This document shows positions 7,185 to 18,231 of a DNA stretch of 49,023 nucleotides, piece by piece. Location of the stretch: NCBI GenBank assembly GCA_028287685.1, contig JAQBPE010000264.1, positions 1 through 49,023 of the forward strand, written 5' to 3'. Below the pieces are notes generated by a model, which was not told where the DNA came from, searched no databases, and saw nothing but the letters and a program-made list of their open reading frames with translations. Made by a program: the position numbers and the translations under genes. Each line of letters starts with the position of its first letter. Positions within the stretch are counted from its first letter, which is position 1. This DNA comes from Cyanobacteria bacterium RYN_339 (GTDB lineage: Bacteria; Cyanobacteriota; Sericytochromatia; S15B-MN24; JAQBPE01).

Positions 7185-8207
7185 ATGCAGGTCTCCCCCC
7201 TCGCCAGCCGGGTGCTCGCCCCCGCCGCCGCCGCCCCGGCCGCGGCGGATCCGGCGCTGGGCAACAACGCGGACCTGGTGGACGTGCTCAAGCTTCGGAT
7301 GAGCGCCGTGGGCGATCTGCCGGGTGGCAGCGCGCTGAAGCTGGCCACGGCCCTGGACTCCGGGCTCGATGCCGACGACGCCTACGACATGGCCAGCGCG
7401 GCGAACGCGGCGCTGGCGGCGATCGCCCCCGCGCTGAACGAGACCCTGCTGGGCGCGGGCCTCAACGCCATGATGCTGGGTTCAGGCGGCAAGGAGCTGA
7501 AGGCCCAGCACCAGGCTTTGAAGGCCAGCATGGACACCTACAAGCAGGCGCCCGACGGCGACCACGTCGATGCCGCCCTGGGCGTGGCCGCCGCCGCCAC
7601 CAAGCTGACGGTGATGTACCGGACGGCGGTCAACGCCGGCAGCGCCGTCGTGAAGTACGCCTTGAAGGCGGTTGGCAAGGTGCCGGCCCTGGCGGGAGAC
7701 GCCGCCAGCATCGGCCGCGCGGCCGCCCAGGTGGTTGACTCGCCCGTCGGCGTGGGGCTGCGCTTCGTCAACAAGTGGATCCCGCTGCTGAACGCTACCT
7801 GGACGCTGATGGCCTTCCGCACGGCTTACCAGGTCTTCGGCGACCACAAGGCGTCGCACACCTCGCGCACGCTGGCCTGCCTGAACATCGGCGCGTCGGT
7901 GGGCGTGCTGCTGGCCGGCATCTGGGCCGGCATGCCGGCCTTCCTGGCCACGGTGGCGGTGGGCTTGCTGTTCGACATGGGCCTGGCGGGCAGCCGCCAA
8001 GTGGACGCCGCCGGTGGCCAGATGGACGCCCAGATGGCCGCCGCCGCCGCGGACCCGGTGGCGGGGCTGCAGGCCTTCGGGAGCTGGTTGGTCCGGTTGG
8101 GTCGCGCGATGTTCCGGCAGCAGGCGCAGAAGACAGGCGACGCGGTCGATCGGTTGACGCCCAAGCGTCGCGTACCGGTCGCGAAGGACCGGGTGCTGGT
8201 CGGTTAA
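7185..8207 (+). CDS. Unknown protein with central membrane segments
   Basis: A 340-residue Ala-rich protein with no signal peptide and no family I recognise. Residues 1-90 are helical and begin with a Pro/Ala-rich tail. Residues 100-165 are amphipathic helices. From about 200 to 270 there are two or three hydrophobic segments (PLLNATWTLMAFRTAYQVF, TLACLNIGASVGVLLAGIWAGMPAFLATVAVGLLFDMGLAG). The basic C-terminus (KRRVPVAKDRV) would sit in the cytoplasm. The N-terminal style, a short polar tail running straight into helices, resembles that of the LysM protein at 25083. AAGG at 7177-7180 is close to the ATG but usable. Confidence 0.7.
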   Translation: MQVSPLASRVLAPAAAAPAAADPALGNNADLVDVLKLRMSAVGDLPGGSALKLATALDSGLDADDAYDMASAANAALAAIAPALNETLLGAGLNAMMLGSGGKELKAQHQALKASMDTYKQAPDGDHVDAALGVAAAATKLTVMYRTAVNAGSAVVKYALKAVGKVPALAGDAASIGRAAAQVVDSPVGVGLRFVNKWIPLLNATWTLMAFRTAYQVFGDHKASHTSRTLACLNIGASVGVLLAGIWAGMPAFLATVAVGLLFDMGLAGSRQVDAAGGQMDAQMAAAAADPVAGLQAFGSWLVRLGRAMFRQQAQKTGDAVDRLTPKRRVPVAKDRVLVG

Positions 8208-8214
8208 GGAACTG

Positions 8215-10518
8215 CTAGAACGGTGAAACCAGCGTGATCGGCAGCAGCGACTTCGGCTGGATCCGCCCGGTCGAAGCGCGCTCGTACAGCCCGGTGTAAA
8301 TCGCTTCCGTATCCGAGGACTTGGCGTTCGCGATCGCCAAAGCCGTGTCCACCACCGGGTCCGCGGCCACACGATCGCTGCCGAACTTGTGGGGGTCGAA
8401 GGCATTCCAGGACGCGTCCAGCTCCGCGATGCGCGAATCGACGATCGCCTCGCCCGCCTGGAAGTCCTTCACCTTCTGGGCCAGCTGCTGGAAGAGCTTG
8501 GACCTGGTCGGCACGGTCTGGGCCGCCGAGGCGGTCTTGACCTGGCTGGCCTTGAAGAACGCCGCGATGGCACTCAGGCGGTCCTTCTCGGGCGGGATGA
8601 AGTTAAATAGGTGCACGGTGCTGATCGCCATCAGCGTGGTGCTGCTGTCTACCGCCGCCAGCGCCGTCTGGTTGCCGGGCGCGAAGACCTGGGAGTAAAC
8701 GTGCAAGTTGCCGGTGACGTCGGAGCACTCCAGGAAGAAGACCATCGGGGTGTTCTTCACGGGCAACTGGAAGGCGCCGCGTCCGTCCGTGGCGACCCAG
8801 TCCGTCAGGGCGTTGCCCTCCACGTCGATCGCGCGGACGCTCAGGGCGTCTGGCCACAGGTACTCCAGCACGCCGCCGGCAGTTCGGCGGATGCCGGGGA
8901 CGAAGGCGGACACGTTGATGGCCAACAACTGGAACTTCGCCAGCATCGGGGCCACCGGCAGGTACGGGAAGCCGGTCAGCATGCCGCCGTTGTTGGCGAC
9001 GATGCCGGAGGCGTTGTTCCCGATCAGTTGCGACCCATTGTTGGCGACGATCCCCGAGGCGTTGTTGCCGACCAGCTGCGACCCATTGTTGGTGATGATG
9101 CCGGAGGCGTTGTTGCCGACCAGCTGCGACCCGTTGTTGGTGATGATGCCCGACGCGTTGTTCGCGATCAGCTGGGTGGTGCTCGTCTGGCCGGCCACCG
9201 TGTTCGGGTCGAACGTCGTGGCGGCGCCCGTCACCACGCTGACGTTGCCTGCTTGGGGCAGCGCGGGCGCGGTCACGGCCAGCGTCAAGCCGGTGGCCAG
9301 CGTGGCACCGGTGCGCGTTACGCCCGGCAGGGCGATCGCGGCGCGAGCGGCGACCGCCGTAGCGCCGGTGCTGTCCGCGACCGGGGCCGCGAGATCGAGC
9401 ACGCCGGATTCCCGGATCGTCTGGGGGATGAGGTCGGGGCCCACGTCCAGCGGCTTGCCGTCGGCGGCGAAGCCGAAGGCGCTGTTGATGTCCGTGGTCG
9501 TCAGCGTGACCTCGAGGCGCACGCCCAGGAGCTCGGCGCCCGGCACGGCCACGCGCGTGAAGCCGCCCAGCAGGGCGGTGGGGTCCGCCGCGACGGGCAA
9601 GGTCAGCACGTCGCCGTTGAGGGCCAGGCCGAAGGCGCCCTTCACGCCGCTGCGCCAACTGGGGTCGCCGGTGGCGTCCAGCGCCTGGTAGGCGTTCAGC
9701 AGCTGCGCGGCCGCCAGGGCGTTTTGCTTCTGCACGTCCGTCCAGCCTGCCGCGCCCGTCTCCCAGGGCGGGGTGCCCTGGCCGCTCCAACCGTTCAGCA
9801 TCTGGCGGAGGTTGAGGTCGATTTTCAAGTTGCCGCTGCCGTCGCTGCCGGACGCGGAAGCGTCCACGTTCACCGACAGGCCCAGCGCCGTCTTGATCGG
9901 CAGGCACGCCAGCGGGGCGGCGCAGCTGCCGGACGCCGGCACGGCCTGCCCACGGGCCCGGTAGAGCTTGGTCAGGTCTTGCTGGTAGGCCGCCGCTACC
10001 GCGTCCTGGCCGCCCGGGGTGTAGGCGCCCAGGGCCAGCGAGGTGCTGCCGTCCAACAGGCCGGCGGGCACGTAGACGGCGACGGCGCCGTCGCTGGAGG
10101 AAAGCTTGCCGCCGGCCGCGTCGATCCGGATCGCGGGCCCCAGCGTAAGCAAGGGGGAAAGCGTGACGCCGGCCAGGGCCGCCTCGGCGCTCAGGCGCAC
10201 CGGGGCGTAGCCGCCGGCCATGATCAGGAGGTTGCCCAGGCGTTGGCCTTCCTGGAAGACGGTCTCGGACACGGCGATCGCCCCGTCCTTGATGGGGAAG
10301 GCTCGGCCGTCCACGTAGGCGGTGCCGTCCTGGATGGGCTTCCCGTCTGCGCGCAGCACTTTCAGCAGGCGCACGGCGCCGGCTTCCAACGTACCGCGTC
10401 CCTTGACCACGCTTTCCGTCGAGGCACCCGGCCCGAACGGCAGCTTGCACCCACTGGTAAGCAGCAACGCCGCCACCAGCGCGCCCGTACGGCAACGCGA
10501 AGTGAAGTTAAAGGACAT
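8215..10518 (-). CDS. Large lipoprotein with Asn-rich octapeptide repeats
   Basis: A 767-residue protein with a signal peptide and lipobox LLTSGC. An early segment (VLRADGKPIQDGTAYVDGRAFPIKDG) resembles a carboxypeptidase-regulatory-like beta domain. The middle is long and beta-rich, typical of surface proteins. At about residues 447-513 it carries eight octapeptide units alternating NNASGI(I/V)x and NNGSQL(I/V)x, probably a small beta-solenoid. A second beta domain and a helical C-terminus follow (residues 515-767). The ATG at 10518 is preceded by GAGGGGG, and the longer frame upstream has no signal peptide at its start. It is probably anchored in the outer or inner membrane, and its function is unknown. 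The unrelated lipoprotein at 30252 has a different octapeptide repeat. Confidence 0.85.
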   Translation of the reverse strand: MSFNFTSRCRTGALVAALLLTSGCKLPFGPGASTESVVKGRGTLEAGAVRLLKVLRADGKPIQDGTAYVDGRAFPIKDGAIAVSETVFQEGQRLGNLLIMAGGYAPVRLSAEAALAGVTLSPLLTLGPAIRIDAAGGKLSSSDGAVAVYVPAGLLDGSTSLALGAYTPGGQDAVAAAYQQDLTKLYRARGQAVPASGSCAAPLACLPIKTALGLSVNVDASASGSDGSGNLKIDLNLRQMLNGWSGQGTPPWETGAAGWTDVQKQNALAAAQLLNAYQALDATGDPSWRSGVKGAFGLALNGDVLTLPVAADPTALLGGFTRVAVPGAELLGVRLEVTLTTTDINSAFGFAADGKPLDVGPDLIPQTIRESGVLDLAAPVADSTGATAVAARAAIALPGVTRTGATLATGLTLAVTAPALPQAGNVSVVTGAATTFDPNTVAGQTSTTQLIANNASGIITNNGSQLVGNNASGIITNNGSQLVGNNASGIVANNGSQLIGNNASGIVANNGGMLTGFPYLPVAPMLAKFQLLAINVSAFVPGIRRTAGGVLEYLWPDALSVRAIDVEGNALTDWVATDGRGAFQLPVKNTPMVFFLECSDVTGNLHVYSQVFAPGNQTALAAVDSSTTLMAISTVHLFNFIPPEKDRLSAIAAFFKASQVKTASAAQTVPTRSKLFQQLAQKVKDFQAGEAIVDSRIAELDASWNAFDPHKFGSDRVAADPVVDTALAIANAKSSDTEAIYTGLYERASTGRIQPKSLLPITLVSPF
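8989..9171 (-). repeat. 48-bp tandem repeat coding for paired octapeptides
   Basis: About four 48-bp units, each encoding two octapeptides (NN-A-S-G-I-x-x and NN-G-S-Q-L-x-G), inside the 767-aa lipoprotein gene. Units differ mainly at third codon positions and by Val/Ile and Thr/Ala swaps, so the array is old enough to have diverged at DNA level while the protein pattern is kept. It is coding and in frame, not a CRISPR array. Confidence 0.85.
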
Positions 10519-10609
10519 CCGGATCCCCCTCGATCGATCGACCTTCCCAGGATCCAACATACCCATCACCTGGTCGGTTAAATTGAGGTTATCCAGCTAG
10601 AAATCCGGC

Positions 10610-12409
10610 TTAGAACAGCCACCAAATCTTGGTGCGCGCCTTGGCGATGTCGGAGTAGTGCGGCTGGGCCTGCGCGTCCGCGGCGTTGACGCGGAAGCGG
10701 TAAGAGCGGAAGCGCGCGAGGTGCTCGATCCGGGCGGTGTGCTCCGTGCTGGCCGTGGCCTCGGGCTGCGTGAGGTTGGCCATGTCGGCGGTGTCGCCCC
10801 AGGAGAGCGTGCAGCGCATCGGCGTGACGGTGTGCCAGGTGATCGTCAGGTGGTCCGTGCCACGCTCCTTGGCGCCCAGCGCCGTGATGGCTTCGGAGAC
10901 CGCGCCGGGCTGGCCGTTGATGGCGTCGGAAGCGGCGCCGTCCGTGCCGTCGGCGTCGAAGGCCTGCACGGTGTAGCGGCCGGCCGCGGCCACGCCGGGG
11001 TCGGTGAAGTGGGTGGCGGCGGCGGTGCCGATGGCCATGCCGTCGCGCAGGATGCGGTAGCCGGCCACGCCCACGTTGTCCGTGGCGGGGGCCCACGTCA
11101 GGTCGACGTCGCCGGGGCGGCCACCGTTCGCGGCCAGGCCGGTCACGCGGCTGGGGGGGGTCAGGTCCAGGGCGGCCACGGCCGTCAGGGCGGCTTCGGC
11201 ATCGAGGCCCTTGGGCGCGCTGCCGCTGAAGCCGGTGGTCGCGCGGCCGCCACGCTGCAGCGCGGTCTGGATGTTGCCGGCCGTCAGCTTGGGGAAGGCG
11301 GAGAGCAGCAAGGCGGCCGTGCCGGCCACGTGCGGGCTGGCCATGCTGGTGCCGCTCATCGTGAGCGTGCCGCCCTTGAAGTTCAACGAGCCGATGCTGG
11401 AGCCGGGCGCGGCGATGTCGATGTAGCCGCCGAAGTTCGAGAAGTAGCTCTTCTTGTAGGCGCTATCCACGCTGGCGACGCCGATCACCTCGTCGCAGGC
11501 CGCGGGGTAGAAGTTGTCGCTGACGTTGTCGTTGCCGGCGGCGCAGATGACCACCACGCCCATGGCCTGGACCTTGGCGATCGCCCGCCGGATCGACTCC
11601 GAGGAGCTCGGACCGCCCAGGCTCATGTTGATGATCTTGGCGCCGCGGGTGGCGGCTTCGACGATGCCGTCCGCGATGGCCTGGTTGGTGCCCGTGCCCT
11701 GGGCGTCGAGCACCTTGATGGGCAGGATCTTGGCATGCGGCGCCACGCCGGCCACGCCCAGGCCGTTGTTGGCGAGCGCGGCGATCGTGCCGGCGACGTG
11801 GGTGCCGTGGCCGTGGTCGTCGCTGGCGTCGTTGTCGTGGTTCACCAAGTCCAGGCCGGGCAGCACCTGGCCGGCCAGGTCGGGCTGGTTGGCGGCGACG
11901 CCGGTGTCGACGACGGCGATCGTGATGCCTTCGCCCTGGGTGATGCCCCAGACGTCCGGCGCGTGGATCGCGCCCACGCCCCAGCTCAGGTTGAAGTCCG
12001 GGTCGGCGGGGGTGCCGGCCACGCGGTAGATGAAGTTCGGCTCGACGTAGTCGACGTCGGGGGCGGACTCCCAATCGTTCACGGCCATCAGCGAGTAGGC
12101 GTTGGGCTTCAGCTTGTAGACGTAGGTGTTCGACAGGCCGAGCTGGCGGTCGCGGGTGGCGCCCGGCAGGTCGCGCGCGCCGCCCTTGAAGTGCACGATC
12201 AGCTCGCCGGGCACGGCCTCGTCAGGCTGGGTGGTGTTGGCCGGGGCCACTTCGGCGGCGCCCTTGGTCACGGTCACGCCCGGGGCCAGCGCCACGCGCT
12301 GGGCGGAGGCGAGCGGCACGGTCACCAGGGTGCCGCCAGCACCCTTGCCGCCGCAACCGGCAAGCAGCAGGGTGGCGATCACGATCGGGAGGTGGCGGGG
12401 CATGCGCAT
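10610..12409 (-). CDS. Subtilisin-like serine protease lipoprotein with FN3 domains
   Basis: A 599-residue S8 protease. The signal peptide ends in lipobox LLAGC (Cys19). Residues 65-128 form an I9-like propeptide (PGELIVHFKGGARDLPG...DVDYVEPNFIYR). The catalytic triad is complete: D168 in AVVDTGV, H201 in HGHGTHVAGT and S355 in GTSMASPHVAG, with oxyanion N293 in AAGNDN. After about residue 430 come two fibronectin-III-like domains (PPSRVTGLAANGG...VDLTWAPATDNVGVAGYRILRDG and EAITALGAKERGTDHLTITWHT). It should be an active, membrane-tethered extracytoplasmic protease. Start codons at 12409 and 12403 are both possible after AGGT at 12415-12418. I chose 12409. It is divergent from the gene at 12598. 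Confidence 0.93.
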   Translation of the reverse strand: MRMPRHLPIVIATLLLAGCGGKGAGGTLVTVPLASAQRVALAPGVTVTKGAAEVAPANTTQPDEAVPGELIVHFKGGARDLPGATRDRQLGLSNTYVYKLKPNAYSLMAVNDWESAPDVDYVEPNFIYRVAGTPADPDFNLSWGVGAIHAPDVWGITQGEGITIAVVDTGVAANQPDLAGQVLPGLDLVNHDNDASDDHGHGTHVAGTIAALANNGLGVAGVAPHAKILPIKVLDAQGTGTNQAIADGIVEAATRGAKIINMSLGGPSSSESIRRAIAKVQAMGVVVICAAGNDNVSDNFYPAACDEVIGVASVDSAYKKSYFSNFGGYIDIAAPGSSIGSLNFKGGTLTMSGTSMASPHVAGTAALLLSAFPKLTAGNIQTALQRGGRATTGFSGSAPKGLDAEAALTAVAALDLTPPSRVTGLAANGGRPGDVDLTWAPATDNVGVAGYRILRDGMAIGTAAATHFTDPGVAAAGRYTVQAFDADGTDGAASDAINGQPGAVSEAITALGAKERGTDHLTITWHTVTPMRCTLSWGDTADMANLTQPEATASTEHTARIEHLARFRSYRFRVNAADAQAQPHYSDIAKARTKIWWLF

Positions 12410-12597
12410 GCCGTTACCTATCGTCGCCGGAGGCGCGCGGCTTGCAACATGCCCCAAAGCTTACCAAACGGATAACATGGATTTAAGCACACCCCTGGTC
12501 GCCCGCCGGGCCTGCGTTTGCGCCCTTCCACGCGCGGGCATATAGGATCGTGACGGCGCTCATCGCCGCATCCCGTGCGGTTTGTTAGGATTCGGCC

Positions 12598-13419: not shown

Positions 13420-14130
13420 CTAGCCCTGGTGGATGGCGTTCCAGTCTGCCAGGAGCGCCTTGAACACCGCCCGGAAAATCGCCTGGTCTCGCTCCTTGTC
13501 CATGGCACCTACCAGCTGGCGGGTGAGCAGCGGCAGCTCGCGCAGGTCTTGCAGCGCGTCGTTGCTGGGCAGCTTGAGCGTGCATTCCTTCCAGATCGGC
13601 TGCATGAGCGTTGCCATCAGCTGGCGGGCAATGAAGTCCTGGAGCTGGGTGGGCATGCCGCCGCGCGCCGCGTCCAGGGCCTCACGCACCCACATGGCGC
13701 GGTTGCGGATCTCGCCGGTGAAGCGGTCGGACATGCGGGCGGGGCGCTGGTAGCCCCTGAAGAAAGGCTCGGCGTAGGCGGTGGCGGCACCGGCGCCGGC
13801 CCAATAGACCAGGAAGCCCGGCAGGCCGAAGCGCATCCCCAGCATCCCCAGCAAGCCCATGAAGCCGTAGCCGAACAAGGCCATCCCGATCGGCCGCACG
13901 ATCGTGCGGAAGTTGAACGCCCACAGGCCGTAGAGGACCGTCAGCACCGTGCCCCAGGCGTAGGCGAAGGACCAGAAGCCCTCGCCGGCCCCAAGCACGC
14001 GGCCGTCACCGTACCAGTGGCCGTACATCTGGCCCAGCCACACCATGCCGATCGTGGTCAGCATGCCCACCACGGCGATGAACGCCGTGCGGGTGAAGAA
14101 GCGCTTGGGGCCGCCGAAGGAGCTGAACAT
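13420..14130 (-). CDS. Membrane protein with C-terminal domain shared with its operon partner
   Basis: A 236-residue protein with four or five hydrophobic segments in residues 14-125, then a soluble helical domain (about 130-236). That domain matches the 123-aa protein encoded at 14379 over its length: the order R-x-x-D, then VREALDAARGGMP, W(K)E, LPxxDxxxDLR, and a closing LLADWN is repeated there as R-x-x-D, VRNDVVTALPGGAP, WREN, LPADVADLR, LLEDWLANWN. The two genes thus encode a membrane-anchored and a soluble version of one domain. It is the last gene of the five-gene operon, starting five bases after DUF350. I recognise no family. Confidence 0.8.
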   Translation of the reverse strand: MFSSFGGPKRFFTRTAFIAVVGMLTTIGMVWLGQMYGHWYGDGRVLGAGEGFWSFAYAWGTVLTVLYGLWAFNFRTIVRPIGMALFGYGFMGLLGMLGMRFGLPGFLVYWAGAGAATAYAEPFFRGYQRPARMSDRFTGEIRNRAMWVREALDAARGGMPTQLQDFIARQLMATLMQPIWKECTLKLPSNDALQDLRELPLLTRQLVGAMDKERDQAIFRAVFKALLADWNAIHQG

Positions 14131-14135
14131 CGGCC

Positions 14136-14366
14136 CTAGGTCACGATCGCGGTCACGACGATCGCCGCCAGCGCGAGCGCCACGGCGCCCATCTGGATGC
14201 CGGCCGCGACGTTGCCGCGTTCGATCTCCGAGCGGTAGTCGATCGGGTCCAACCGGTCATACAGCCGCAGCCCGAAGTAGAGCAGCAGCACGCCGAACAG
14301 GGCCCAGCCCGTGGCAGAGACCAGGCGGGTCATGGTGTGGATGACGTTGATGTCGAAAATCATCAT
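14136..14366 (-). CDS. DUF350-family small membrane protein
   Basis: A 76-residue protein with two membrane helices (TGWALFGVLLLYFGLRLYDRL and IQMGAVALALAAIVVTAIV) joined by the signature stretch LDPIDYRSEIERGNVAAGI. This is the DUF350 pattern. Full DUF350 proteins such as E. coli YjfL often carry two copies of this unit, while this one has a single copy. In other bacteria DUF350 genes sit near PspA-family and polyamine-type genes, which fits the spermidine-synthase-like fusion at the head of this operon. Two adjacent ATGs (14366, 14363) are possible, with AAGG upstream. Gaps to both neighbours are 5-12 bases. Confidence 0.85.
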   Translation of the reverse strand: MMIFDINVIHTMTRLVSATGWALFGVLLLYFGLRLYDRLDPIDYRSEIERGNVAAGIQMGAVALALAAIVVTAIVT

Positions 14367-14378
14367 GGGGTTTTACCT

Positions 14379-14750
14379 TCAACGACTCGGAGGGCCGGGA
14401 TTGCCCGGGGCGTTCCAGTTGGCGAGCCAGTCTTCCAACAAGCCTTGCAGGGTGGACTGGTAGATCGGGAACCCCCGACCATACGGGTCGGGGCTCGCCA
14501 CGGAATGGGCCAGCTCGATGAACGAGCGCAAATCTGCCACGTCGGCCGGCAGCAGCCCGTCCGTGTTGTCGTTCTCGCGCCAGTCGCGTAAGACCACGTC
14601 GAGCACGGCCTCCAGCGTGAAGGCGTCCGCCTTGGCGGGGGCGCCGCCCGGCAACGCCGTGACCACGTCGTTGCGGACGGTGGCGATGGTCTTCTTGAAG
14701 AGGTCCGCCGTCTCGTCGGGGACCCGGCCGTAACGTGGCATGCTTACCAT
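14379..14750 (-). CDS. Small soluble protein, partner domain in the FemAB/DUF350 operon
   Basis: A 123-residue helical, soluble protein with no signal peptide. Its body aligns by eye with the tail of the membrane protein at 13420 (see that entry), so it is probably a free copy of the same domain, possibly a competitor or subunit in the same assembly. The start at 14750 overlaps the end of the FemAB gene by seven bases (ATGGTAA), implying translational coupling. The ATG at 14741 is the alternative. It ends in a Pro/Gly-rich tail. I recognise no family. Confidence 0.75.
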   Translation of the reverse strand: MVSMPRYGRVPDETADLFKKTIATVRNDVVTALPGGAPAKADAFTLEAVLDVVLRDWRENDNTDGLLPADVADLRSFIELAHSVASPDPYGRGFPIYQSTLQGLLEDWLANWNAPGNPGPPSR

Positions 14751-15763
14751 CCAATCTCTTGGACCGCCCGCACGACGGCGTCGGCGAGGCGATCGAGGAA
14801 GAAGTGCTCCTGGGCGCCGATGAACTGGACCGCCTGCCCGCCGAACTGGCGCTTGAAGCGCGAGAAGCTGGCGTACAGGTGGTCGGGCCGGCCGAAGGGG
14901 TCGAAGCCATAGAAGTCGTAAGTATCGCAGCCCGCCGCGTGGGCGTGGCGGATCGCGGCCCACTGCAACGCGTAGCCGGCCATGCGGTTGCGTTCGAGGC
15001 CGGTGACGCCCCCGTAGAGGTAGGTGGCCCGTCGCCCGTGCGTTACCATCAGGTGCGCCCCCAGGAACTGGTCGCCGTGCCAGGCCACGTGCACCGTCGG
15101 GTTCAACGTATCGAGCAGCGTGGCGAAGAACGCGCGTGGCTCCAGGAAGAAGCCGTGGCGCATGGCGGCCTGTCCAAGCGCTTCATACAGGAGGTCCAGC
15201 CCTTCGCCTGGCGGCAACGCTTCCACCACCACGCCCTTGCGGCCCGCGAGCCGGACGTTGTAGCGGCCCTTGGGGTGCATCGCCGCCAGCACCTGCTCGG
15301 GGCCGGGCGTGAGGTCCAGGTAGAGCGTCTCGCTGGGCAGCAGGTCGACCGGCGCGCGCTTGAAGGAGCGCAGCGGCCTGGGCGACGGAGGCAACAGACG
15401 CGGCTCCACGCGCCAGGCGATCGCCCCGCGCCGGGTGGCGACTTCCGCGAAGGCCTCGTGCAGCACGCGCATGCCGGCGTGCGCCAAAGCCTCGTCGGCC
15501 CACGGCAACACCGGCCCCTCGGGCGAGACCAGCAGCCCGCCGGGCAGCGGGGCCGCATAGGCGATCGCCCCGCCCACCAGCCGCTCGCCCTGGTACACGC
15601 CCAGGTGCATCACGTCCAGGCCTTGGGCTCGCTTGAAGCCGGCCCAAGCGATGCTCTGCATGAACCCGCTTTCGGGGGTTGCGGCGACCAGCGCGTCCCA
15701 CTCGGCGGCCAGGGCGTGGCCGGGGGCCAGCTCCGGCAACTCCCGCGCGATGAGCAGGGTCAT
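14744..15763 (-). CDS. FemAB-family GNAT acyl/aminoacyl transferase
   Basis: A 339-residue protein with the double GNAT fold of FemAB/FemX proteins. Recognisable pieces are ATPESGFMQSIAWAGFKRAQG near the N-terminus, the central KGRYNVRLAGRKGV, and the C-terminal signature FLGAHLMVTHGRRATYLYGG followed by AGYALQWAAIRHAHAAGCDTYDFYGFDPFG. Family members transfer amino acids from aminoacyl-tRNA to lipid II or act on exopolysaccharide and other amine acceptors. The acceptor here is unknown. The start overlaps the stop of the upstream fusion gene as ATGA (15760-15763). In this context it may conjugate an amine product of that partner to an envelope component, which is an inference. Confidence 0.9.
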   Translation of the reverse strand: MTLLIARELPELAPGHALAAEWDALVAATPESGFMQSIAWAGFKRAQGLDVMHLGVYQGERLVGGAIAYAAPLPGGLLVSPEGPVLPWADEALAHAGMRVLHEAFAEVATRRGAIAWRVEPRLLPPSPRPLRSFKRAPVDLLPSETLYLDLTPGPEQVLAAMHPKGRYNVRLAGRKGVVVEALPPGEGLDLLYEALGQAAMRHGFFLEPRAFFATLLDTLNPTVHVAWHGDQFLGAHLMVTHGRRATYLYGGVTGLERNRMAGYALQWAAIRHAHAAGCDTYDFYGFDPFGRPDHLYASFSRFKRQFGGQAVQFIGAQEHFFLDRLADAVVRAVQEIGW

Positions 15764-18231
15764 GGCTTGCCGCCTGCGTGCATGAAGCGCTCTTGCAATT
15801 GCCGGTAGGTGGCCATGGTCGAGGGCAGCTTGCCGATCTGGCCGTAGATGTCGTTGTACGTGGCTTGCGCCCGGTTCAAGGCGTCGTTGGACAGCTGCAG
15901 CGCGGTGGCGCAACTGACGTTCTGCGTGCCGTAGGTGACGGACGAGCCCATGCCGTCGCTCTGCCCGATACTCGTGTACTCCGCGATGTCCGCGCGCAGG
16001 CTGGAGAGGTCGGCCTGGTAGTCTTGCAAGCTCTTGGTCAGGCCGGCGCGGGTGGCCTGCTCGTCCTTGGTCTGCTGGGCCAGGTGGTGGGTGATCACGT
16101 CGCGCAGGGCGGGCGTGTAGGGCAGGGCGGCCGGCATGGTCAATTGCTCGTTCTGGAAGAAGCCCCGCACGGGATCGAGGTAGACGTAGCTGCCTTGCTC
16201 GGTCTCGATCGCGAGCGCGTTGCCGTTGATCATGATCCACGCGCCGTTGAAGAGCTCCTGCGCCCCCGGCGTCGGCGCTCGGGCCGTGGCAGGCGTGGTG
16301 GTGGGCTGGCTCGGCAGCTTGAAGGTGGCGGTCTCCAGGCGCTTCGCCATGGTGCGCACGTTGGTGGCTTCCGCCACGTCGTCGGCGCTGCCGGGCATGA
16401 ACGAGAGCCAGTCCATCCAGTAGATCCAGCGGTCCTTGGCGTCGCCGGTGGCTACCAGCCCCTTGCGCTGCCGGTCCAGCTCGTGGGCCAGGCGCCACAT
16501 CAGCAGGGGCTGTTGGGCCACCGACAAGACGGGTTGCCCGGAATCCCGGTCGAAGAGCGTCATGGGGCCCTTGTCGATCACGAAGAAGGCCTTGTCGTTC
16601 AGGTCCATGACCAGCTGGCCCTTCTCCGTCAGGCCCACCTCCGGCGTGAGCCGGTAGACGACTTGCAGGTCCTCGGGTTCGCCGAACGTATCGCCGCTGC
16701 CCACGCCCGGGTTGGTGCCGCTGCCGCTGCCGCTGTGGTAGGTGCCCCCGCCGTAGTAGTGGGTGTGGTAGACGCGGTAGTGCGGCACGTTGACCACGTA
16801 GCCCATTTCGTCCACCGCGTGGCCCCGGCCGTAGCTGCTGGTACGGAAGCCACCATGCGAGGCGATGCTGGGCGGCTCGAAGGTGGAACTGGAACTGCGA
16901 CCGGCATGCAGGAAGCTGCCCGCGTGGCCGCCGGCGGAGGCGCCCTTGCCGAACACGCTGTCCGGGAAGGCCAGGTTGCCCACCACCACGACCACCATGA
17001 CCACGGCCAACACGCGTGCGCCCACCCGGGCGATGTGTTCCAGCGCGGGGCCGGGCTCGGCCAGGGTCTGCTTCAGGAGCTGCAGCTCGCCGACGAACAG
17101 GGCGGGCAGCTCCTTGGCGCGGGCCAGCAGGCGGTCCACCAGCCCGGGCAAGTCGACCGCGGCCAGGAAGCGCGCGGGGGCCTCCAGGAAGCTCGCGACC
17201 ATGGTCCTGGTGGGCTCGCGCTGGAGGCCCGGCATCAGGTCGAGCACGCGCTCCACCAGGGTCTCCTGGTCGGCCTGATCGAGGCGCGCTTCGGCGAGTG
17301 CCGTGCGGATCGGGGCGGGCACCAGGGCCAGCCCCGCGGGCACCGGGCCCGTGCCGGCGCCGAGCTCGGCCGCCAGGGTATCCCAGGCCGCGTCGGGCTC
17401 GCCCACGGGGCCGGGGCGCTGCAGCAAGGTGAACAGCACGGCGCCGTCGTCGCAGGGGGCCGTTTCCTTGGCCAGGCGCTCGTGGTCGGCCGGGAAGAAG
17501 GCGAGCCGCCGGAGCTGGGCCGCATCCCGCAGCGCCCGGCGCGGGCCGGGCAGCGCCACGTCGAACGACGGCAGCGGGGCCGGCGAGGCCACGATCATGC
17601 CCCAGTCCGGCCCGTAGCCCTGGGCCTGGAAGGACGGCAGGGCGAAGCGCAGCGGCCGGGCGTGCAAGCCCGCGTGGCGCAGGCCATTGACCATGGCCCA
17701 GTAGGCCTCCGGCGTGGCGCTGGGCGAGGCGGCGTTCAGCGACAGCACGCCACCGGGCGTCAGGGCGCTCGCCAGCCGGGCGTACCAGCCCACGGTGTGG
17801 AAGCCGGCGTCCGTGGGCGTCTTGGGCCACGTCAGGTCGGAGATGATCACGTCGTAGCGGCCCGTGCAGGCTTCAACGAAGGCCCGGGCGTCGCCCACGT
17901 GGACGCTCACGCGCGGGTCCGCCAGGCTCCGGCCGTTGAGCTCGGCCAGCTCCGTGCGCGCCAGCGCCACCACGCCCGGGTCGTAGTCCACCAGATCGAC
18001 GTGGGCCACCCGCTCGGCCTTCAACAGCTCGCGCAGGGCCAGGCCGTCGCCGCCGCCGCAAACCAGTACGTTGAGGGGCGTGGGCACGGCCGCGAGGGCG
18101 ATCGCCAGGGCCGGCAGCGCCAGGACCTCGTGGTAGATCTGCTCGTCTCGGCTGTCGAACTGCAAATCGCCCCCGATGTAGAGGGCGACCGATCCATCTG
18201 ATGCGGCTTGGAGACGGTGGTGGTTGGTCAC
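15760..18231 (-). CDS. Spermidine-synthase-like domain fused to TM and extracytoplasmic region
   Basis: An 823-residue fusion. Residues 15-220 match spermidine synthase: YIGGDLQFDSRDEQIYHE, the AdoMet/dcAdoMet loop GGGDG (59-63), acidic D82/D84, and SDLTWPK (131-137). The key aspartate at 132 is kept, but the usual DxSDP is altered. Residues 225-400 are helical and end in a single membrane helix (VLAVVMVVVVVGNLAF, about 407-422). Beyond it is a Gly/Ser/His/Tyr-rich stretch, a beta domain and a C-terminal coiled coil (DYQADLSSLRADIAEY). The synthase part is probably cytoplasmic and the rest outside. The start is a GTG with AGGAG six bases before it. An extended -10 (TGCTATAGT, 18269-18277) lies upstream. 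It heads the five-gene operon. Confidence 0.88.
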   Translation of the reverse strand: MTNHHRLQAASDGSVALYIGGDLQFDSRDEQIYHEVLALPALAIALAAVPTPLNVLVCGGGDGLALRELLKAERVAHVDLVDYDPGVVALARTELAELNGRSLADPRVSVHVGDARAFVEACTGRYDVIISDLTWPKTPTDAGFHTVGWYARLASALTPGGVLSLNAASPSATPEAYWAMVNGLRHAGLHARPLRFALPSFQAQGYGPDWGMIVASPAPLPSFDVALPGPRRALRDAAQLRRLAFFPADHERLAKETAPCDDGAVLFTLLQRPGPVGEPDAAWDTLAAELGAGTGPVPAGLALVPAPIRTALAEARLDQADQETLVERVLDLMPGLQREPTRTMVASFLEAPARFLAAVDLPGLVDRLLARAKELPALFVGELQLLKQTLAEPGPALEHIARVGARVLAVVMVVVVVGNLAFPDSVFGKGASAGGHAGSFLHAGRSSSSTFEPPSIASHGGFRTSSYGRGHAVDEMGYVVNVPHYRVYHTHYYGGGTYHSGSGSGTNPGVGSGDTFGEPEDLQVVYRLTPEVGLTEKGQLVMDLNDKAFFVIDKGPMTLFDRDSGQPVLSVAQQPLLMWRLAHELDRQRKGLVATGDAKDRWIYWMDWLSFMPGSADDVAEATNVRTMAKRLETATFKLPSQPTTTPATARAPTPGAQELFNGAWIMINGNALAIETEQGSYVYLDPVRGFFQNEQLTMPAALPYTPALRDVITHHLAQQTKDEQATRAGLTKSLQDYQADLSSLRADIAEYTSIGQSDGMGSSVTYGTQNVSCATALQLSNDALNRAQATYNDIYGQIGKLPSTMATYRQLQERFMHAGGKP

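Follow-up and report, generated by a model that had tools for sequence, protein, structure and literature searches.

Cyanobacteria bacterium RYN_339 carries, on contig JAQBPE010000264.1 (positions 1 to 49,023, a stretch of 49,023 nucleotides that we call the window), five genes that follow one another on the minus strand between 13420 and 18231 and that we name A to E. Gene A joins a spermidine-synthase-type domain to a membrane helix and an outer domain, gene B encodes a FemX-type transferase, and the three smaller genes encode a soluble protein, a half-length DUF350 protein and a membrane protein (Table 1); their positions, overlaps and gaps are those that an earlier note, made from the sequence alone, had read. 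The pairing of A with B is real, ancient and cross-phylum, and the operon is a variant of the known clusters of spermidine synthase and DUF350 genes with an unreported, invariant FemX-type core partner. We take A to E to be real genes because homologues of A, B and C recur in the same order in a sister genome of Sericytochromatia, at 42%, 53% and 53% identity. For gene C an alternative ATG start at 14741, giving 120 amino acids and a 2-base gap, fits the homologues equally well. The GC content of the operon equals that of its flanks, phages gave no match to B and plasmids gave no match to the operon DNA, and on these grounds a phage or plasmid origin was rejected. A promoter scan detected none where about 0.3 were expected, a result that is uninformative at the GC content of the operon.

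Table 1. Genes of the operon and the parts of proteins A and E, with positions in the window
Feature	Position	Strand	Description
Gene A	18231-15760	minus	GTG start, 823 amino acids; spermidine-synthase-type domain followed by one membrane helix and an outer domain
A residues 5-216	17584-18219	minus	aminopropyltransferase-fold domain, cytoplasmic; Asp62, Asp132 and Trp135
A residues 237-396	17044-17523	minus	linker region, helical and cytoplasmic, modelled with low confidence
A residues 397-421	16969-17043	minus	single membrane helix, predicted, limits approximate
A residues 419-429	16945-16977	minus	sequence motif N-x3-P-[DE]-x-[AVST]-[YF]-[AG]-K
A residues 430-823	15763-16944	minus	disordered Gly-rich stretch followed by the outer domain (about 520-818)
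Gene B	15763-14744	minus	339 amino acids, FemX-type aminoacyl-tRNA transferase; double GNAT without coiled-coil arm; overlaps A by 4 bases
Gene C	14750-14379	minus	123 amino acids, soluble four-helix-bundle domain without known relative; overlaps B by 7 bases
Gene D	14366-14136	minus	76 amino acids, half-length DUF350, two membrane helices; 12-base gap after C
Gene E	14130-13420	minus	236 amino acids, N-terminal membrane helices and C-like domain; 5-base gap after D
E residues ~135-236	13423-13728	minus	divergent copy of the C domain, from sequence comparison

To measure the conservation of the pair, 84,980 species genomes were scanned by profile with two peptide patterns taken from A's enzyme domain, which led to 48 loci. 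The survey is conditioned on A, and B without A was examined within the class Sericytochromatia. Fusions like the one in the window account for 32 of the 48 loci and come from Sericytochromatia, Obscuribacterales, Herpetosiphonaceae, Armatimonadota and Elusimicrobiota; with one further genome, G196, relatives of A are present in 33 genomes besides the window's, spread over Cyanobacteriota, Chloroflexota (Herpetosiphon), Armatimonadota and Elusimicrobiota. Wherever the contig continues, A is followed directly by B on its own strand (26 of 26 loci, and the window), at distances between -32 and +29 bases across four phyla. G196, which was picked blind by its DUF2617 gene, shows the order DUF2617-F7-A-B (F7 being a membrane protein of Armatimonadota) and brings the adjacency to 28 of 28 loci, the window included. 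The trees of A and B each divide along phylum lines and agree in their deep order. The neighbourhood check that had been set beforehand thus finds the genes staying together across phyla; of the five-gene unit described in the earlier note, what is kept is A and B, which form the stable core, and C, D and E are optional.

The full order A-B-C-D-E recurs in five Herpetosiphonaceae, and loci L034 and L036 have A-B-C-E. Among the 18 genomes of the class only one other, G010, also has a full-length A (42% identity), after which come B, C and an E that has extra membrane helices, with no DUF350 gene between C and E; within the class, FemAB proteins like B are confined to the two A-bearing genomes. 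Elusimicrobiota arrange a DUF4178 gene with membrane helices, A, B and a full-length DUF350 gene in that order, and Armatimonadota have DUF2617 (in 4 of 6), F7, A and B. A search with protein P0005 in 59 relatives matched only itself. At one locus of Cyanobacteria bacterium TGS_CYA1 (L051:12873-15032) a gene for a TPR-caspase (Peptidase_C14) shares bases with the end of B, and more related genes lie nearby.

The enzyme domain of A passes the curated cut-off of the spermidine synthase family PF01564 (E 1.8e-28, 99.8 bits against 22.9), and Pfam methyltransferase profiles match it too. Its closest curated family is PRK03612, the form with seven transmembrane helices (7TM), of which it matches the C-terminal half at profile positions 263-497 (E 5e-60). 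The score of 203 bits lies below the cut-off of 472, and A has a single C-terminal helix in place of seven N-terminal ones, so that it is not a member of the 7TM family; against SpeE it is far below the cut-off as well (108 versus 250 bits). The structure model of A has a mean confidence score (pLDDT) of 79, rising above 90 in the enzyme domain, and its best fold match is the aminopropyltransferase of T. thermophilus (1uir, E 2.4e-15), with the T. cruzi spermidine synthase holding decarboxylated S-adenosylmethionine (dcAdoMet; 4yuv) also matched.

The active site tells the protein apart from ordinary spermidine synthases. In these enzymes the first Asp of the DxxDP motif is catalytic and the second has a role on the acceptor side. 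In all 32 relatives of A the first is invariant (Asp132), as is Asp62 of the GGGDG motif, the acidic residue for dcAdoMet; the second Asp is replaced by Val, Phe, Leu or Trp (Trp135 in the window), the Gln of the next motif has become Asn (Asn166), and a GYG-x-DW insertion appears across the relatives. The 7TM enzymes, unlike A, retain both DxPDP and the Gln. Spermidine synthases require Asp or Glu in GxG(D/E)G for dcAdoMet, a position at which a fungal methyltransferase has Ile (PMC10349129). Because the dcAdoMet-site Asp and Asp132 are kept and no relative has the second Asp of DxxDP, A is probably an aminopropyltransferase whose acceptor is not putrescine, and for want of that second Asp we do not file it as a spermidine synthase. 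The nucleotide site, whose absence from the head protein would by the earlier note have refuted its reading, is therefore present both in the GGGDG motif of all 32 relatives and in the fold of the model. The PADLOC profile mads_2 matches A residues 40-217, within the spermidine synthase domain (E 3.7e-19), which suggests that the mads_2 defence protein carries a domain of this kind as well. As it is the only strong PADLOC match and lies over that domain, we took it as a common enzyme fold and rejected a defence system.

About 395 residues of A lie beyond the membrane helix, in keeping with the roughly 400 extracytoplasmic residues proposed for the head gene. Directly after the helix all 33 A proteins (the window's and the 32 fusions) carry the motif listed in Table 1, and it is absent from the other 445 genes predicted in these loci. 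Since the motif fits the well-established -3/-1 rule of signal peptidase I, the outer part of A may be released by this enzyme. The segment that follows is rich in Gly, His and Arg, begins with an invariant Lys, and is nearly absent in Elusimicrobiota. The outer domain, modelled with a pLDDT of about 90, consists of strand and helix modules with a long helical hairpin at the end. It has no match in Pfam, and a profile search of the PDB gave chance-level matches to low-complexity and coiled-coil proteins. In fold searches with A the top 50 PDB hits were all spermidine-synthase-type chains, and those against viral models were mostly spermidine synthase or methyltransferase proteins with some unrelated viral ones, so that neither search named the fold of the outer domain; none of 292 genomes of the phylum has this domain separate from A.

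B passes the cut-off of PF02388 (E 5e-32, 111.6 bits against 24) and stays far below the NCBIfam equivalog cut-offs. A profile of 24 B relatives, covering the full double GNAT, matches FmhB (6snr, E 1.5e-42) and FemX (4ii9 residues 8-329, E 5e-27). Three of the four FemX positions that we followed are kept in kind: the equivalent of Lys305 is Lys304 in 23 of 23 B proteins, that of Phe304 is invariant, and that of Lys36 is Lys44 in 24 of 24. The fourth, Arg211, a contact of the acceptor phosphate in FemX, aligns with an invariant Glu, Glu208. FemX Lys305 is a catalytic residue near the substrate (PMC12945691). B is best explained as a FemX-type transferase that would draw on aminoacyl-tRNA to add an amino acid to an amine, and since members of FemABX aminoacylate small amines as well (PMC12945691), its acceptor may be small.

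Neither C nor E matches a Pfam family. Their kinship, proposed in the earlier note as a pair of novel domains, is borne out most clearly between C and the sister genome's homologue of E (E 2e-18), and more weakly between C and E inside the window (7e-4). The shared domain has 11 invariant columns in its alignment (A4), such as Trp54, and its model, with a mean pLDDT of 86, is a four-helix bundle; a fold search with C against the PDB returned nothing at E <= 0.001, and the domain has no solved relative. E gave no match when genome contigs were scanned with it as a single-protein query, and it evolves too fast to serve as bait. D matches PF03994 over 63 of its 133 profile positions (4-66; E 6e-12, 46 bits against a cut-off of 26). 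DUF4178, the PspA-CesT/Tir family and PspA have no match in A to E or in the four flanking genes scanned.

An aminopropyltransferase would draw on dcAdoMet, and a homologue of S-adenosylmethionine decarboxylase (AdoMetDC; AdoMet_dc, E 6.5e-33), with the processing motif ESHxSxHTYPE, is the sixth gene after A-B-C-D-E in 4 of 5 Herpetosiphon loci. Some genomes with A (among them G081-G084, G086-G088 and G090) have a separate, adjacent speD-speE pair, and there A is thus an extra enzyme and not the housekeeping spermidine synthase. The window's genome has its AdoMetDC on another contig (L145), and its two other matches to PF01564 belong to long proteins whose membrane N-termini are MFS-like. Of the 33 searched A carriers, the window included, 29 have AdoMetDC.

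DUF2617 (PF10936) offers an observation beside this. Its gene lies two genes upstream of A in Armatimonadota (L039:1043-1555, L041:3628-4155, L044:642-1112, L053:8806-9402 and L150:9751-10377), and of 33 A-bearing genomes 29 have AdoMetDC, while the 4 that lack it are exactly those with DUF2617; none of 14 control genomes has both. DUF2617 may stand in for AdoMetDC as the source of dcAdoMet. This idea is weakened by G002, which has both, and by the many Armatimonadota that have neither. The DUF2617 proteins of L039, L041, L044, L053, L149 and L150 carry ASHA..LLxC..HTYPEEG, in which the active-site elements of SpeD (ESHxSIHTYPExG..C) appear reordered. A remote homology of DUF2617 to AdoMetDC is not claimed, the profile comparison (17% probability over 13 columns) being not significant.

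The operon has known relatives. Li and colleagues reportedly described, in 2019, gene clusters of AdoMetDC and an MFS-type spermidine synthase with a polyamine-independent role, and are said to have proposed aminopropylation of a substrate other than putrescine. In those clusters an AdoMetDC homologue, a spermidine-synthase-like membrane protein and DUF350 reportedly come together as they do here; the present operon has another membrane architecture in A and adds a FemX-type transferase. Operons of 7TM spermidine synthase, DUF350, DUF4178 and PspA have been described, with aminopropylation of other substrates suggested (PMC11237479), so that the linkage of DUF350, PspA and polyamine-type genes named in the earlier note is published. 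The 7TM/MFS fusions of this kind (PRK03612 type) are the closest family of A's enzyme domain and share DUF350 with it, and DUF4178 and full-length DUF350 accompany A in Elusimicrobiota. A differs from them in having a C-terminal membrane helix and outer domain instead of the 7TM N-terminus, in the loss of the second Asp of DxxDP and of the nearby Gln, and in its invariant FemX partner; the five genes, together with the four flanking ones scanned, also differ from such operons in the absence of a PspA match. Among the FemABX proteins (Weissella FemX; S. aureus FmhB and FemA; VlmA, PacB and DhpH-C in PMC12945691), FemX aligns with the whole length of B; B departs from the group in its scores below the equivalog cut-offs, in the Glu at the Arg211 position and in having A rather than cell-wall genes as partner. 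The fungal AN4663, an N-terminal histidine methyltransferase (PMC10349129), is like A a membrane protein with a spermidine-synthase-like domain, and makes no spermidine; its GxG(D/E)G motif has Ile and it bears seven helices at the N-terminus, where A has Asp and a single C-terminal helix. A pairing of FemAB with spermidine synthase is not described in the literature searched, an absence limited to that body of papers.

Three sister genomes (loci L028, L030 and L033 of G001, G006 and G002) carry a 7TM spermidine synthase operon with DUF4178, and with DUF350 in two of the three; two of these loci also encode a small Gly-rich single-helix protein and a membrane protein of about 131 amino acids without a family. 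This operon is likely the parent form of the one in the window. In L030 the 7TM gene is followed by that of an FAD amine oxidase whose N-terminus is Tat-like (7277-8896; Amino_oxidase E 7.7e-9).

We read A and B as a sequential two-enzyme modification module working on one acceptor at the inner face of the membrane, a reading to which we give a probability of roughly 0.45. Membrane-anchored A would move the aminopropyl group of dcAdoMet to an amine other than putrescine, and B would transfer an amino acid from aminoacyl-tRNA onto an amine, the two acting successively on the same amine-bearing acceptor, most likely a membrane-linked envelope precursor. D and E would be membrane partners, with C and the tail of E sharing a helical domain for docking. 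A would display its outer part outside, or signal peptidase would free that part at N-x3-P-D-x-A-Y-A/G-K-G, between A/G and K; it may bind the modified envelope or sense it. The earlier proposal of a membrane-bound operon with polyamine-type chemistry is supported; its statement that a polyamine-like compound is made holds for that type of chemistry and is unlikely for ordinary spermidine, given the lost second Asp and the separate speD-speE pairs. Several points weigh against our reading: C, D and E are missing from most Obscuribacterales loci and from Armatimonadota; with Glu208 at the Arg211 position, the acceptor of B may be something other than a UDP- or lipid-linked precursor; the cleavage of A is a prediction from sequence; AdoMetDC is present in 16 of the 18 genomes of the class and so says little where it lies apart from the Herpetosiphon operon; and a homologue of AdoMet_dc may in fact be an ornithine or arginine decarboxylase (PMC10407285).

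Other readings of A were weighed too. The PF01564 match, the T. thermophilus enzyme as best fold match and the standing of A as the sole strong spermidine-synthase-type gene in Herpetosiphon and in the DUF2617-bearing Armatimonadota would suit an ordinary spermidine (or agmatine) aminopropyltransferase merely tethered to the membrane among unrelated envelope genes. We consider this quite unlikely in view of the replaced Asp and Gln in all relatives, the score far under the SpeE cut-off, the separate speD-speE pairs of several carriers and the invariance of the FemAB partner. No better placed, at the same low odds, is an S-adenosylmethionine-dependent methyltransferase like the fungal 7TM enzyme that methylates the N-terminal histidine of lytic polysaccharide monooxygenases: one membrane protein with such a domain did prove to be a methyltransferase (PMC10349129), and methyltransferase profiles match A, but the Ile of the fungal enzyme stands against Asp in 32 of 32 relatives, and the Herpetosiphon operon includes an AdoMet decarboxylase homologue. 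A somewhat less improbable alternative, still unlikely, has the domain sense dcAdoMet or polyamine, with slow catalysis or none, and pass a signal along the membrane helix to the outer domain. The single-helix fusion to a large outer domain agrees with it, and PspA-type systems have been proposed to monitor polyamine concentration or aminopropylation (PMC11237479); however, Asp132 and the nucleotide-site residues are invariant across very divergent relatives, which is unusual for a pure sensor, and the invariant FemX partner would be left without a role.

The acceptor itself could be a protein, perhaps A's own Gly-rich segment or a small co-exported protein, and not a lipid or glycan precursor. 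The Gly/His/Arg-rich segment with its leading Lys, and the separate small Gly-rich membrane or secreted proteins of the 7TM-relative operons, point that way, but the catalytic domain of A and B are cytoplasmic while the segment is predicted outside and nearly vanishes in Elusimicrobiota, and we rate this the most improbable of the readings weighed here. A bolder form of the two-enzyme module, which we hold to be doubtful, treats A as a split-product protein: once the C-terminal part had been exported, signal peptidase would cut between [AG] and K-G, so that a membrane-bound aminopropyltransferase stays inside and an envelope protein of about 395 residues with an N-terminal Lys is released, and together with the FemX-type partner this would make a new tRNA- and dcAdoMet-dependent route to aminoacyl-aminopropyl modification of an envelope component.

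Two neighbours of the operon deserve mention. A subtilase (S8) gene adjoins it on the same strand in both Sericytochromatia loci (window 10610-12457; L034 10796-12019, where it is the next gene after E), possibly as a processing protease, or by chance. Further along the window, at 8215-10569, lies a predicted lipoprotein with tandem NNGSQL[VI]GNNASGI[VI] repeats.

It has been suggested in the literature that many bacterial membrane fusions with spermidine-synthase-like domains aminopropylate substrates other than putrescine, and the operon adds to them an invariant partner of known reaction type, since FemX proteins use aminoacyl-tRNA to aminoacylate an amine. Three domains or proteins without a known family are defined along with it: the outer domain of A, the four-helix domain of C and E, and the membrane protein F7. 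Named, cultured Herpetosiphon strains hold the same five genes together with the AdoMetDC homologue, and polyamine-independent aminopropylation could thereby become directly testable. The pairing of A and B points to a so far undescribed chemical modification at the cell envelope.

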